DNA from: Acetobacteraceae bacterium
GTDB taxonomy: Bacteria; Pseudomonadota; Alphaproteobacteria; Acetobacterales; Acetobacteraceae
NCBI GenBank assembly: GCA_025352375.1
Contig: JANXTL010000276.1
Coordinates: 1 to 32,276, forward strand
Direction of reading: 5' to 3'
DNA length: 32,276 nt
In this document: in pieces, positions 15,015 through 29,947 of the stretch
How positions within the stretch are numbered: the stretch's first letter is position 1
How the letters are laid out: each line of letters begins with the position of its first letter
Translations under genes and position numbers: made by a program
Notes under the pieces: model-generated
The model's input: the letters and a program-made list of their open reading frames with translations, nothing else
Databases searched by the model: none
Told to the model about the DNA's origin: nothing

Positions 15015-15131
15015 TAGACCATGATCGTTTGAGGTTGCACGCGATCTCGGCGTTCGATGATGGTCTAAGCCTTTGTTTGAGAGGGTGATTCACGCCCGAG
15101 GTTGAAGTCAACCTCAGGCGATCACGCTCTA
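15015..15131. mobile_element. MITE-like element, copy 1 (TA-flanked, 117 bp)
   Basis: First of two copies of a non-coding element, 114/117 identical to 28091-28207. It begins TAGACCATGATCG and ends CGATCACGCTCTA, so both ends are TA. The left end and the reverse complement of the right end agree at 17 of 21 positions after the TA (GACCATGATCG against GAGCGTGATCG at the tips). Internally there are two hairpins: the left arm TAGACCATGATCG pairs with CGATGATGGTCTA (one mismatch in this copy), and GAGGTTGA pairs with TCAACCTC around AG. Inverted ends and TA borders suggest a MITE moved by an IS630/Tc1-type transposase. It ends 17 bases before the VOC gene start and so forms most of that gene's upstream region. 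Confidence 0.72.
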
Positions 15132-15148
15132 AAGGGAGCGATCGAGCC

Positions 15149-15703
15149 ATGACCACGCTGCTGTCCCGCCCACCCGAGCGCCTGCATCACCATGCTTTCG
15201 TGGTGAAGGACCAGGAGAGGAACCGCCGGTTCGTCGAAGACGTGTTGGGCATCCCGCTCGCCGCCACTTGGTGCGAAAGCCACCACAGCCCCTGGGTGGA
15301 TCGGGAAGTCGCGTTCTGCCACACTTTCTACACCATGGGCGACGGCGGGGCGCTGGCGTTCTTTTCGTTCGCCGACGACGAGGTGTATCAAAAGACCCAG
15401 GCCGAGAAGCCGGCCGAAATCGGTAGCTTCGACCATATTTCCTTCAAGGTGGACGAAGCGACGTTCGGCGACCTGGTCGGCCGATTGCAAGCTGCGCGGG
15501 AGGCGGTGCGGATCACCGACCACGGCTATTGCAGATCGATGTACTGCACGTCCCCCGACGGGCTGATCATGGAGTTCACGGTGGACCCGCCCGATGCCGC
15601 CCGCATCGACGCGATCCGCCGGGCCGATGCGCATGCGGAGCTGAAGCGATGGATGGCGGGGGATCATCGGCCGAACAACGACCTGCGGCACGCCGCCGAA
15701 TAA
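15149..15703 (+). CDS. VOC family protein (glyoxalase/extradiol dioxygenase fold)
   Basis: A 184-residue vicinal-oxygen-chelate protein with two beta-alpha-beta-beta-beta halves. Probable metal ligands are His14 or His15 in LHHHAFVVKD, His96 in GSFDHISFKV and Glu142 in DGLIMEFTVDPP, the pattern of glyoxalases and extradiol dioxygenases. The RSMYCTSPDGLIMEF segment is typical of the C-terminal half. It could be a ring-cleaving dioxygenase-like enzyme, an isomerase or a lyase; sequence alone does not decide. The ATG at 15149 has GGGAG about 11 bases upstream. The upstream DNA is mostly the repeated element at 15015-15131, which may have changed its original promoter. Confidence 0.9.
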   Translation: MTTLLSRPPERLHHHAFVVKDQERNRRFVEDVLGIPLAATWCESHHSPWVDREVAFCHTFYTMGDGGALAFFSFADDEVYQKTQAEKPAEIGSFDHISFKVDEATFGDLVGRLQAAREAVRITDHGYCRSMYCTSPDGLIMEFTVDPPDAARIDAIRRADAHAELKRWMAGDHRPNNDLRHAAE

Positions 15704-15874
15704 GGGCACGCCGCGCGGGGTTCGCCAAACTGTCATCGAATCGCCATTGTTTGGTCCCAGTGCTGGAAGTATCCACCGCAGATGCCTGAATCGAACCCGA
15801 ATCCTCCGCCCGGCAAGATCGGCCATTTGGCTCGTCGGCCCCGCTTGTTCCATCGCAACGACGGTGGTGGGCCT

Positions 15875-16753
15875 ATGGATATGTCCTTGCCCCTGAGCCC
15901 GCCATCGCTGACCAGCCGGTTGCGCGCCCTTCGCCGTCTTGCGGCGGTGTTCCTGTGGACGCTCCCGAGTGCGCCGATCCAGGCGGTATGTCTGCTGTTG
16001 CCGGGCCGGGCGAAGATCGCATTCGCCAAACTTTATTGGGCCGTGTTCGCCCGCCTGCTTGGGTTGCATGTGCGGGTGATCGGGGAACTGGCCTCAGGCG
16101 GGTCGGATCGCCCGGTGATCTATGTGTCCAACCACTCGTCCTGGGTGGATGTCCCCGTGGTGGGCGGCGTGCTGGATGGCTGTTTCGTCGCCAAGGGCGA
16201 TGTCGCGGGTTGGCCGATCGTCGGCACAATCGCACGCCTCGGCCGTTCGGTGTTCGTGACCCGCCAGCGCGGCTCCACGGTGCGGGAGCGCGATACTATG
16301 CAGGGGCTGCTGTCGGGCGGCGACAATCTCATTCTTTTCCCCGAGGGCACGAGTTCCGACGGGTCCCGGGTGCTGCCGTTCCGGTCTTCTTTCTTCTCCG
16401 TCGCGCAGAGTGAGGCTCAGCCGATCATTCAGCCGGTATCGGTGGTATACGACCGCCTGGGCGGGCTGCCGACCGGGCGCGCCAACCGGCCGGTGTTCGC
16501 GTGGTATGGGGATATGGATATCGCCTCGCACGCCTGGCGGTTGGCGCGGTGCAGCGGGCTGCGGGTGACGGTGCTGTTGCACGCACCGATGGATCCGGCG
16601 CGTTTCCCGGATCGCAAAGCGCTGTCGCAAGCGATATGGCGGACGGTCGCTGACGGTGCGGCGACGCTGCGGCAGAACCGCCCAGCGCGGCCTCTGGCGG
16701 TCGAGGACGGGCCGGGCGGAGATCCGATCGGGTCGGCGGAGGCGTTTGCGTAA
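15875..16753 (+). CDS. Lysophospholipid acyltransferase (PlsC-type)
   Basis: A 292-residue 1-acylglycerol-3-phosphate-type acyltransferase acting at the inner membrane. The HX4D motif is NHSSWVD (His87, Asp92) and the acceptor motif is LFPEGTSSDGSRVLPF (from about 154). The GRSVFVTRQRG segment and IQPVSVVY strand are also family features. One hydrophobic helix (about 23-43) precedes the catalytic domain. An in-frame ATG at 15782 would add 31 residues that are Pro-rich and show lower G/C at third positions, so the ATG at 15875 is preferred, though no strong ribosome site supports either. It could act in phosphatidic acid synthesis or on ornithine lipids (OlsA-like). It is convergent with the YciE-type gene, leaving only 34 bases between them. 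Confidence 0.9.
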   Translation: MDMSLPLSPPSLTSRLRALRRLAAVFLWTLPSAPIQAVCLLLPGRAKIAFAKLYWAVFARLLGLHVRVIGELASGGSDRPVIYVSNHSSWVDVPVVGGVLDGCFVAKGDVAGWPIVGTIARLGRSVFVTRQRGSTVRERDTMQGLLSGGDNLILFPEGTSSDGSRVLPFRSSFFSVAQSEAQPIIQPVSVVYDRLGGLPTGRANRPVFAWYGDMDIASHAWRLARCSGLRVTVLLHAPMDPARFPDRKALSQAIWRTVADGAATLRQNRPARPLAVEDGPGGDPIGSAEAFA

Positions 16754-18728: not shown

Positions 18729-19076
18729 ATGTCGAAAATTGCATGGAGTGCGCTGGCACTCGCGGCCATTTGCGCGGGGCCGGCCTTTTCCCAAACGACA
18801 ACGCCGTCCCAAACGACAACACCCTCCACGGTGACGCCCTCGGTCGCGACACCGACCACGCCTCCGCCGGCAGGCGCACCCGTCGCCGGCGCCAACAGTT
18901 TCACCGAGGCTCAGGCACGCACGCGCATCGAGGACCAGGGTTACACGAACGTCACGGGTCTGATGAAAGATAGTCAATCGATATGGCGCGGAACGGCCAT
19001 GAAAAGCGGGTCATCCATGGCGGTTTCTCTCGATTACCAGGGCAACGTCGTCGGCACCGCGGCAGCCAAACCGTGA
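18729..19076 (+). CDS. Small secreted PepSY-like protein
   Basis: A 115-residue exported protein. Residues 1-21 are a Sec signal peptide (MSKIAWSALALAAICAG then PAFSQ, cleavage after the AFS motif). Then follows a low-complexity Thr/Pro/Ser linker (about 22-55) built partly from a tandem QTTTPS unit, matched in the DNA by an 18-base direct repeat at 18789-18824. The C-terminal 60 residues (FTEAQARTRIEDQGYTNVTGLMKDSQSIWRG and later MAVSLDYQGNVV) have the helix-strand-strand shape of PepSY-like domains. AGGAG lies 9 bases before the ATG. It is the first gene of the plus-strand stress set. Its function is unknown; the linker suggests it spans part of the envelope. Confidence 0.85.
   Translation: MSKIAWSALALAAICAGPAFSQTTTPSQTTTPSTVTPSVATPTTPPPAGAPVAGANSFTEAQARTRIEDQGYTNVTGLMKDSQSIWRGTAMKSGSSMAVSLDYQGNVVGTAAAKP
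18789..18824 (+). repeat. Two-unit 18-bp tandem repeat in the PepSY-like gene
   Basis: Units 18789-18806 and 18807-18824 are 16/18 identical and encode the repeated QTTTPS of the Thr/Pro linker. The repeat is in frame, so slippage would lengthen or shorten the linker without breaking the gene. Confidence 0.8.
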
Positions 19077-19144
19077 AACGGGAAGCCGACGCCATAGCGC
19101 GCGGCTCTCGGACCATCGCATCCACCATGAACAAGGAACCTCAA

Positions 19145-19750
19145 ATGACAGCCAACACTATAACCGGTCTCTATGACACCTATGGCGCGGCGGAGCAGAC
19201 CGTTCGCGACCTGAAGGCTGCCGGCATATCGGATGCCGACATCAGCCTCGTCGGGAACCGGGCGCACGATGCCACCGAGCACACCAGTGACGCGGGGACC
19301 GGGGCGGTGACAGGCGCGGCGGTCGGCGGCGTGGCGGGCGCGGGCGTGGGAATACTGACCGGGCTCGGGCTTCTCGCAATTCCGGGCGTGGGTCCGGTCG
19401 TGGCCGCGGGGTGGCTGGTGGCGACCGCCGTCGGAGCCGTCGCCGGTATCGGCGCGGGCGCTGCGACAGGCGGGCTTATTGGTGCGATGACCGATTCTGG
19501 AATCAGTCGCGATCACGCCCATCTGTATGCCGAGGGGATACGGCGTGGCGGCACCTTGGTTACGGCGCGGGTCGACGATACCCGGGCCGCGTCGGCCGAG
19601 GCCATCATGAACCGTCATGGCCGGGTCGACATGTCCGTGCTCGAGAAGACCTATCGCGATGATGGGTGGAACGGGTTCGACGAGCATGCGCCGCCGTACA
19701 CGCCCGCGGAACGGTTGGCCGTCCCGTTCGGCAAAGACAAGCGGCTGTAA
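19145..19750 (+). CDS. General stress protein (17M-like domain with glycine zipper)
   Basis: A 201-residue protein. The N-terminal domain (TGLYDTYGAAEQTVRDLKAAGISDADISLVGN) is the ferredoxin-like module found in general-stress protein 17M/YflT-type proteins. It is followed by a long Gly/Ala-rich segment (about 50-120) with GxxxG repeats, a glycine zipper likely to insert in or span a membrane, and then a second copy-like domain (ISRDHAHLYAEGIRRGGTLVTARVDD) that handles the same fold's second half. The C-terminus is Pro-rich and charged. AAGGA lies 7 bases before the ATG at 19145; the longer open frame upstream overlaps the PepSY-like gene and is not credible. Neighbouring katE supports a stress role. 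The biochemical function is unknown. Confidence 0.87.
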   Translation: MTANTITGLYDTYGAAEQTVRDLKAAGISDADISLVGNRAHDATEHTSDAGTGAVTGAAVGGVAGAGVGILTGLGLLAIPGVGPVVAAGWLVATAVGAVAGIGAGAATGGLIGAMTDSGISRDHAHLYAEGIRRGGTLVTARVDDTRAASAEAIMNRHGRVDMSVLEKTYRDDGWNGFDEHAPPYTPAERLAVPFGKDKRL

Positions 19751-27894: not shown

Positions 27895-28089
27895 CTACGC
27901 GCGGGCTGGGACGGTTGAAAGCCGCGCCGCCGTCATGGACTGGTGCCAAGCCTGGAACATCGGCAAACTCCAGATCAAAGGGGTCCAGGACCGGCCGCGC
28001 ACCGAGAAATCCTCCCAGATGTGGCGACAGGTATCGACGTTCAGTAGACCATGGCGGGCCAAGGCGTCCCGGCTGAGCAGCGCTTCCGC
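27895..28089 (-). pseudogene. asnB: Cut-off C-terminal fragment of the asparagine synthetase
   Basis: On the minus strand this stretch reads AEALLSRDALARHGLLNVD, then a CRHIWEDF segment and LIWSLPMFQAWHQ, ending at a TAG at 27897-27895. That is the expected end of the asparagine synthetase at 28205-29947 (compare the usual WAEALL... and LMFQAWLE endings of the family). It has no start codon or ribosome site of its own. The 117-bp element at 28091-28207 separates it from the main gene. Removing the element with one TA puts the two parts in the same frame, giving a protein of about 645 residues, normal for this family. Seen directly: the homologous tail. Inferred: the insertion event. Confidence 0.82.
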
Positions 28090-28090
28090 C

Positions 28091-28207
28091 TAGACCATGA
28101 TCGTTTGAGGTTGCACGCGATCTCGGCGTTCGATCATGGTCTAGGCCTTTGTTTGAGAGGGTGATTCACGCCCGAGGTTGACGTCAACCTCAGGCGATCA
28201 CGCTCTA
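28091..28207. mobile_element. MITE-like element, copy 2, inserted in asnB
   Basis: Second copy of the TA-flanked repeat, differing from 15015-15131 at three positions. In this copy the left hairpin arms TAGACCATGATCG and CGATCATGGTCTA are perfectly complementary, and the inner palindrome is GAGGTTGACGTCAACCTC. The retained perfect stem suggests this copy is closer to the founder sequence, or that the stem is selected. Its right end supplies the TAG stop codon now used by asnB (28207-28205). No open frame lies inside it, so movement would depend on a transposase elsewhere. Confidence 0.78.
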
Positions 28208-29947
28208 AGCGCGCAATATGTCGAGAAGCCACAGCTGCACCGGCGCGTTGAACCCCATTTTAGGGCGGTCCACCAGGGACGCCGGCACATGCTGCTTCAA
28301 CAGCCGGCGCAGCGGCAGCTTGCCCACGCCCCCGCGGGTTTTCTCGTCGGCCGGGAAACGCCACGACATTTCGAAGATCCGATGATCCAGCAGCGGGCAA
28401 CGCACCTCCAGCGAGGCCGACATCCCGGCACGATCGACCTTGGTCAGAATGTCGTCTATCAGGAACGTTCCACTATCCATGAACAAAAACCGGTCGATAT
28501 CGGAGCCGCGACCGAGGCGATACTGGGGTTCCAACAACACATTGGGCGCCCCGACGGGTGCGGCCAACAACGCGTCCGGGTTCAGCGCATGCGACACGAT
28601 CGCGGCGCTGAAGGCCTCCGCCGTGCCGTCGGCGAGCAACGCATCGAACAGCCGCAAGCGTCGTTCAGTACGGTTCCAACCCAGGCACTCGGCCGCCGGG
28701 CGCGCCACTCGAGCGGCGGCGCCGGCTATCGCGCGTATCGGAGCCGGCGTGGCGCGACGGCGGGCGAGCCATCGGGCTGCATCGACGTAACGATCGTACC
28801 CTGCGAACAACTCGTCCCCACCATCGCCCGACAGCGCGACCGTTACGTCCTGCCTCGCTGCCCGGCACAGCAAGGTCGTGGGGATCATGGAATTGTCCGC
28901 CATCGGTTCGTCGAAAATCGTTGCCAGGGCCGGCACCAGTGCCAAGGCGTCGGTCGCCCGGATCCGCGATTCGTGATGCTGCGTTCCCAGATGTTTGGCC
29001 ACGGCTCGGGCGTAGAAGGACTCGTCCCACGCGGGCACATCGAACCCAACCGAATACGTATGAACCGGGCCGGTCGCGCTTTTCCCCATCAGCGCGACGA
29101 TCAGGCTGGAGTCGATGCCGCCCGACAGCAGGCCACCGACCGGCACGTCGGCCACGGTGCGAATCCCGACGGCATCGCGCAGCAGGGCATCCAACTCTTC
29201 CGAGGTCGCGGTCTTACCGCTGTCCCGGGCATCGAGGCCGCGCAGTGCGATGTCCTTGCGGTCCCAATACGTGTGGAGAACCGCGGGAAGTCGGCGGTCC
29301 CCTCCGATCGCCAGCATCTGGCCGGCGGGCAGTTTGCGGGTGCTGGCGAAGATGGATCGCGAGCCGGGCACGTAACCCACGCGCAGGAAATCGGTTAGTG
29401 CGGTCGGGTCGATCGCCGCATCGAAGCCGGGGTGCCGCCAAAGCGCTTTCAGTTCGGAGCCGAATATGAAATCGTCCCCAGCCCATCCATAATACAACGG
29501 CTTTTTGCCGATGCGGTCACGGGCCAGGTGAAGGATGTGGTCTCGGCGATCCCAAACCGCGAGTGCGAACATGCCGTTGGAGCGCCGCAGGGCGGCTTCT
29601 AGCCCCCACAGGGCAACGGCCTCGACCAACACTTCGGTGTCCGAATGCCCCCGCCAGGCGAGAGGACCGATCTCACGACGGATGTCCTCGGCGTTGTAAA
29701 TCTCGCCGTTCAAGGCCAGGACGAAGCGCCCGTTGGCCGACAGCATGGGTTGGTGGCCGGCTGGCGACAGATCGCTGATCGCCAGCCTGCGGCTTCCCAA
29801 GGCGATCCCAGCGGTGACATCGAGCCACGATCCGGCGTCGTCCGGCCCACGATGAACAAGCTGATCCCGCATGTCGGCGATGAGCGATGCGGTGCGTGCT
29901 TCGCATGCGATGCCCGACGGGTTCGAGATACCGACAAAACCGCACAC
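28205..29947 (-). CDS. asnB: Asparagine synthetase (glutamine-hydrolysing), C-terminally truncated
   Basis: A class II glutamine amidotransferase/asparagine synthetase, 580 residues as it stands. The N-terminal glutaminase domain begins MCGFVGISN with nucleophile Cys2 and has LVHRGPDDAG and LALNGEIYN. The synthetase domain has the pyrophosphatase loop GGLLSGGIDSSLIVAL (SGGIDS at 275-280), then SGDGGDELFAGYDRY and VDRAGMSASLEVRCPLLDHR. The start is GTG at 29947 with AAGGAG about 10 bases upstream. The protein now stops right after KMGFNAPVQLWLLDILRA, at a TAG formed by the inserted element. The missing 64-residue end is still encoded at 27895-28089. The C-terminal helices pack on the synthetase domain, so activity is probably reduced or lost. 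Such genes often act in surface-polysaccharide or secondary-metabolite amidation rather than in general asparagine supply. Confidence 0.92.
   Translation of the reverse strand: MCGFVGISNPSGIACEARTASLIADMRDQLVHRGPDDAGSWLDVTAGIALGSRRLAISDLSPAGHQPMLSANGRFVLALNGEIYNAEDIRREIGPLAWRGHSDTEVLVEAVALWGLEAALRRSNGMFALAVWDRRDHILHLARDRIGKKPLYYGWAGDDFIFGSELKALWRHPGFDAAIDPTALTDFLRVGYVPGSRSIFASTRKLPAGQMLAIGGDRRLPAVLHTYWDRKDIALRGLDARDSGKTATSEELDALLRDAVGIRTVADVPVGGLLSGGIDSSLIVALMGKSATGPVHTYSVGFDVPAWDESFYARAVAKHLGTQHHESRIRATDALALVPALATIFDEPMADNSMIPTTLLCRAARQDVTVALSGDGGDELFAGYDRYVDAARWLARRRATPAPIRAIAGAAARVARPAAECLGWNRTERRLRLFDALLADGTAEAFSAAIVSHALNPDALLAAPVGAPNVLLEPQYRLGRGSDIDRFLFMDSGTFLIDDILTKVDRAGMSASLEVRCPLLDHRIFEMSWRFPADEKTRGGVGKLPLRRLLKQHVPASLVDRPKMGFNAPVQLWLLDILRA

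Follow-up and report, generated by a model that had tools for sequence, protein, structure and literature searches.

Does the asparagine-synthase-type gene near one end of this window (the whole stretch of 32,276 nucleotides that was analysed, from an Acetobacteraceae bacterium) end where its reading frame ends, or has it been cut by an inserted repeat? The initial annotation had described a minus-strand asnB frame ending at a TAG in the end of a 117-bp inverted-repeat element, with the rest of the gene beyond it. Both the reading and the coordinates of the stop, 28207-28205, are right. The element was delimited at 28091-28207 with its hairpins and a genome-wide repeat family, and the two halves, 580 codons and 64 codons, join in frame around it (Table 1). 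It is thus confirmed that the insertion of a mobile repeat removed the last tenth of this asparagine-synthase-type gene.

Table 1. Coordinates of the split gene and of the element between its two parts
Feature	Position	Strand	Description
5' part of asparagine-synthase-type gene	28205..29947	-	GTG start, 580 codons, then TAG
Stop codon TAG	28205..28207	-	Junction TA followed by core base 1 of the element
Mobile element	28091..28207	+	117 bp including both terminal TAs; stops in all six frames
Module H1	28091..28143	+	Hairpin TAGACCATGATCG...CGATCATGGTCTA
Module H2	28142..28207	+	Hairpin with end ...GATCACGCTCTA; TA 28142-28143 common to H1
Orphaned 3' gene part	27895..28089	-	64 codons plus stop; no frameshift or extra stop

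The 580-codon frame scores over the curated cut-off of TIGR01536 (427.7 bits, cut-off 267.1), and its product includes the glutaminase domain and the greater part of the synthetase domain, with SGGIDSS present. The match to PF00733 ends at profile position 300 of 354. The match to TIGR03108 (XrtA/PEP-CTERM amidotransferase) covers profile positions 1-570 of 628 with a score of 483.5, below the cut-off of 816.9, and the intact form of the congener designated G003 is also under this cut-off (495.6 vs 816.9). Positions ~571-624 of TIGR03108 represent the region lost here, and they are kept in the intact orthologue. The tail queried alone gave no family match in the profile search. With tblastn, 28089-27895 was aligned with the C-termini of three congener orthologues (69, 65, and 70% identity; E-values 7e-28, 1e-26, and 7e-28), in agreement with the family-typical C-terminus that had been proposed. 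In the frame of the tail, a TAG lies directly upstream, and the first possible start is TTG at the tenth codon. Since the element carries stops in all six frames and the tail has no usable start, translation of the last 64 codons has presumably ceased. Annotation would otherwise call a normal 580-residue enzyme at 28205-29947.

A close orthologue was found in three of the 32 congeners searched: G003 (72% identical), G001 (68%), and G016 (64%). With the residue that aligns to codon 1 taken as the first, these orthologues have 652, 652, and 661 codons, respectively, and none of the three shows the 580-residue form, whose presence as the ancestral state had been named as a refutation. The gene order is the same on both sides of the locus in all three. 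In nucleotide alignments with the three congeners, the flank next to the tail is aligned right up to the element, and the opposite flank stops 13-28 bases short of it. The empty site holds a net 2 bp in 3/3 congeners, against TA-element-TA here. The congener G002, whose genome is 80% complete, gave no match for the gene. G009 has a distant family member and a 44-residue stretch at 73%, and the best stretches in the other congeners searched are ~32-47% identical. One further family member, 37% identical, is encoded in the own genome on contig C86.

The age of the break was examined through pairwise dN/dS against the three congeners, calculated with an in-house Nei-Gojobori script. The main part of the gene shows dN/dS of 0.18, 0.21, and 0.24 against the congeners, and 0.20-0.24 is observed among the congeners themselves. 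The corresponding values for the tail are 0.18, 0.17, and 0.17, with 0.16-0.28 among the congeners. In each pairwise comparison, the three neighbouring genes examined are better conserved than the asparagine-synthase-type gene. As both halves are free of decay, the break appears to be recent on the time scale of these species; the clean frame and the congener-like dN/dS support the earlier suggestion that an undecayed tail points to a recent event. A long-standing pseudogene was considered and rejected, as no sign of it was seen in dN/dS or in the reading frames. The locus thus represents a clean, apparently recent case of a gene broken by a high-copy bacterial miniature inverted-repeat transposable element (MITE), with intact orthologues at the corresponding locus in three congeners.

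The element is composed of two hairpin modules, H1 and H2. The hairpin arms 28088-28103/28131-28146 are perfect over 16 nt, and the second pair, 28169-28182/28183-28196, matches at 93%. Terminal inverted repeats are present, with the outer ends TAGACCATGATCG and TAGAGCGTGATCG. The predicted folding of the element is 6.7 and 7.5 s.d. better than that of 200 shuffles on the two strands. The genome has 323 places that match an 18-base core with two or fewer mismatches, tandem modules being counted separately, against 0 for the reversed control. The number of core places and the strong folding indicate that the repeat is not a product of chance. In the 69 sites first mapped, the overlap of H1 and H2 is exactly two bases without exception, and 67 of them are H1-H2 and 2 are H1-H2-H2. 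The larger set of 90 own sites includes 83 H1-H2, 3 H1-H2-H2, 2 H1 alone, 1 H2 alone, and 1 H2-H2. The Rfam search with the element gave no match.

Full copies number at least 40, and among the matches listed, 39 are 97-98% identical to the copy that splits the gene. Most of the hundreds of copies lie outside recognized genes. TA is found at both ends in 89/90 own sites, although the site search pattern, which allowed 8-9 mismatches, itself favours TA ends. The surrounding context is Y-TA-R: the left base is a pyrimidine in 89/90 own sites and 24/24 sites of G003, and the right base is a purine in 90/90 and 23/24, respectively. The element is matched in 17/33 genomes of the genus, the own genome included. 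Outside the own genome, full-length matches at ~97% were found only in G003, followed by G009 with 81%. The window itself contains a second copy at 15015-15131, 97% identical to the copy at 28091, within which a minus-strand frame of 315 codons (15122-16069) terminates.

Descriptions exist of bacterial MITEs below 200 bp that carry terminal inverted repeats and TA ends and duplicate their target, and RUP with IS630-Spn1 is the best-supported case (PMC2229807, PMC3049150). RUP, the repeat unit of pneumococcus, is 107 bp long, has more than 100 copies, inserts at TA, carries stops in six frames, and has ends that resemble IS630-family element ends (PMC2229807). The present element is likewise short and non-coding, with many dispersed near-identical copies, terminal inverted repeats, and filled and empty sites, as in other bacterial MITEs. 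It also has TA at both ends and an end sequence in common with an IS630-family element. The family is thus similar to the RUP/IS630-Spn1 kind in size, high copy number, TA ends, IS630-like ends, and six-frame stops, with the TA in the empty site being putative. It differs from RUP/IS630-Spn1 in sequence and host and in being built from two hairpin modules joined by a common TA, and the IS630 that matches it best comes from a congener and not from the own genome. Correia/NEMIS and ERIC elements are also small MITE-like repeats that are mostly intergenic with some in genes (PMC2229807, PMC3049150). Their sequence and the modular build set them apart from the element here. TA ends are found in Correia/NEMIS and ERIC elements as well, and RIME and Bru-RS are short palindromic repeats of alphaproteobacteria with a size similar to that of the present element. 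In the open-licence literature searched, the element family is not named in titles or abstract openings.

Candidates for the enzyme that moves the element were searched among IS630-family transposases (PF13358). Five matches were found in the own genome, and 30/33 genomes of the genus have a match, 28 of them over the cut-off. TA-ended terminal repeats were recognized in 14/34 IS630 loci taken. The best of these 14 TA-ended loci is L091 from the congener G027, although the 30 loci of the genus search were taken from a longer list and better sources may exist. L091 is 1,060 bp long from end to end and contains an IS630-type transposase frame of 281 codons between the ends TAGAGCGTGATCGTTTTAAG and TAGAGCGTGATTGTCTGAAG, flanked by T and A. 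The element end agrees with the L091 end at 23/26 bases (88%, E-value 3.6e-4), and the alignment scores, 24 and 26, exceed the 99% point of random scores (16). The element and L091 are alike in end type, TA ends, and the flanking T and A; they differ in that L091 carries its transposase frame and the element here codes for nothing. Another locus, L089 from G007, has an end TAGAGCACGGTTGCTTGAGGTTGACT that looks the same by eye.

The IS630 copies of the own genome were also considered as the source, and 0/5 have clearly matching ends. One of them, L082, encodes a transposase with 56% identity to the L091 enzyme; the visible end of L082, TAGAGCATTTTCCG, differs from the element, and the locus is cut by the contig end. 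Another, L086, has 20-base terminal repeats of other sequence, and it is only weakly similar to the element end, with a score of 17 where the random 99% point is 16. A TA-ended repeat was not found in three of the five own matches. An origin from REP/RAYT (REPIN) systems was rejected, as Y1_Tnp (PF01797) has 0 matches in the own genome, with the control positive in 5/14 genomes. From the similarity of the ends, an IS630-family transposase would move the element in trans.

Very probably, then, the element is a non-autonomous IS630/Tc1-mariner-like MITE with two TA-bounded hairpin modules, which inserted into an accessory asparagine-synthase-type gene and ended its translation after codon 580. 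This degree of confidence applies to the explanation without the order of events at the junction codon. There the initial annotation had left a loose end: the joined codon is TAG, where relatives have Trp. The loose end is real. The junction codon is TGG in 8/9 relatives aligned to the tail, and in L042, the ninth, whose alignment begins at query residue 14, TGG comes one codon later and Trp lines up in the protein alignment. The motif LR/LK-x-W-A is found in 15/16 homologues, L022 being the exception. The two options that had been offered for this codon also stand, either a target sequence that is not exactly recoverable or a gene that was already damaged.

With TA as the target, the Trp codon would already have read TAG when the element inserted. 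A nonsense mutation at this codon would then come first, creating the TA site used by the element. This order is judged reasonably probable; this grading and that of a change in the dinucleotide are judgements, not computed values. The alternative is that the insertion turns a CA/TG-type (or TN) target into TA on both sides, and that the intact gene was hit directly with no prior nonsense mutation. This is possible, yet on the unlikely side. Its main evidence is the asnB site itself, where the codon is Trp and 3/3 congeners hold CA by position, in the element orientation, and not TA. The second case is a hicB-like gene in the own genome, with TAG at the junction where the congener G007 has a Ser codon, and again a net 2 bp.

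Empty relatives were found for asnB, the hicB-like gene, an ABC-ATPase gene, a third gene, and one site at the stop codon of a gene. At the four sites besides asnB, the nearest relatives have CA or GA: the ABC-ATPase site corresponds to GA, CA, and CA in the three closest matches; the third gene has CA in its own-genome paralogue, and CA in six, GA in one, AC in one, and TA in one of nine congeners; and the stop-codon site is CA in G003, with 900 bp aligned on each flank. The alignments of L287/L285 and L296/L259, too diverged for empty-site reading, and of L292/L265, with 43 extra bases, were dropped. Six uncomplicated intragenic insertions were recognized by a coding-score scan and by eye among the 90 own sites, a list that is not exhaustive; three junctions fall in Leu-codon phase, one straddles two codons, and two are in stop phase. 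Two of the six would need a prior nonsense mutation if TA was the target. Since dS is near 1, differences are expected at synonymous and stop positions, and only asnB and the hicB-like gene weigh much.

Against a change of the dinucleotide, TA duplication is typical of IS630/mariner elements (PMC2229807). Sleeping Beauty insertions at CA/TG are reported to have either a non-TA dinucleotide that is duplicated or TA at just one of the two sides, and not at both (PMC5801840, PMC7987939). Besides the one TA among the relatives of the third gene, G003 holds TA at one other own site, in a stop codon (by eye, from the left flank only). As a property of the family, entry into CA/TG-type dinucleotides with TA left on both sides, the apparent TA duplication being a product of insertion, is unlikely. 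If it were true, such MITEs could create in-frame stops directly in intact genes, at a Trp codon here and at a Ser codon in the hicB-like gene. The oddity of the junction makes testable the question of whether TA-flanked bacterial MITEs always need a prior TA.

The function of the enzyme has probably been abolished or strongly reduced. The predicted structure of an intact relative has a mean pLDDT of 45.4, too poor for use. It is improbable that the 580-residue product, whether tolerated or favoured by selection, still works as a shortened enzyme. The active-site motifs are present and the main-part dN/dS is as low as that among the congeners, but if the insertion is recent, a low dN/dS is uninformative on present function; moreover, the lost region is present in the intact orthologue, and the tail was under the same constraint. 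An assembly error at a high-copy repeat could be suspected from the several draft contigs that start or end in or near the element, and is very improbable for this junction, since both flanks are adjacent and collinear in the three congeners and the element is presumably shorter than a usual short read. Bypass of the element by ribosomes or by RNA processing, with continued production of the full-length protein, might be suggested by its strong folding on both strands and by the undecayed tail; it is scarcely credible given the lack of an Rfam match for the element, the lack of identical take-off and landing codons as judged by eye, and the hundreds of copies, mostly outside recognized genes, which mark a plain mobile repeat.

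Several further copies were recorded during this analysis. The names HicB-, KefB-, CopA-, and FAD-oxidoreductase-like are presumptive and reflect the appearance of the sequences; OpgC and ABC_tran are weak Pfam matches. Pieces of the hicB-like, third, and OpgC-like genes had no match among plasmids, and the hicB-like pieces had one match among phages, at 47.5%. In G003, a kefB-like gene is interrupted by the element (L174, ~1011) with ~6 bp of the target apparently missing, which does not fit plain TA duplication; the loss was judged only against five distant plasmid homologues, annotated as cation:proton antiporter, and the case was set aside. In L322 (~3175 on the strand scanned), the element lies between N-terminal and near-C-terminal pieces of a CopA-like (copper-ATPase) gene whose middle is apparently lost, and this case was left out of the six intragenic ones. 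The two sides of the own copy L073 match separate G003 contigs, L235 and L264, a pattern like that of a rearrangement point. Contigs C226, C249, C229, and C265 are among those starting or ending in or near the element, and the element is likely to be a cause of assembly breaks in such draft contigs. In the window, 18983-19750 holds an intact 255-codon frame with no NCBIfam match; a copy of the element interrupts the paralogue of this frame on contig C102, and the identity between the two around the junction is 70%.
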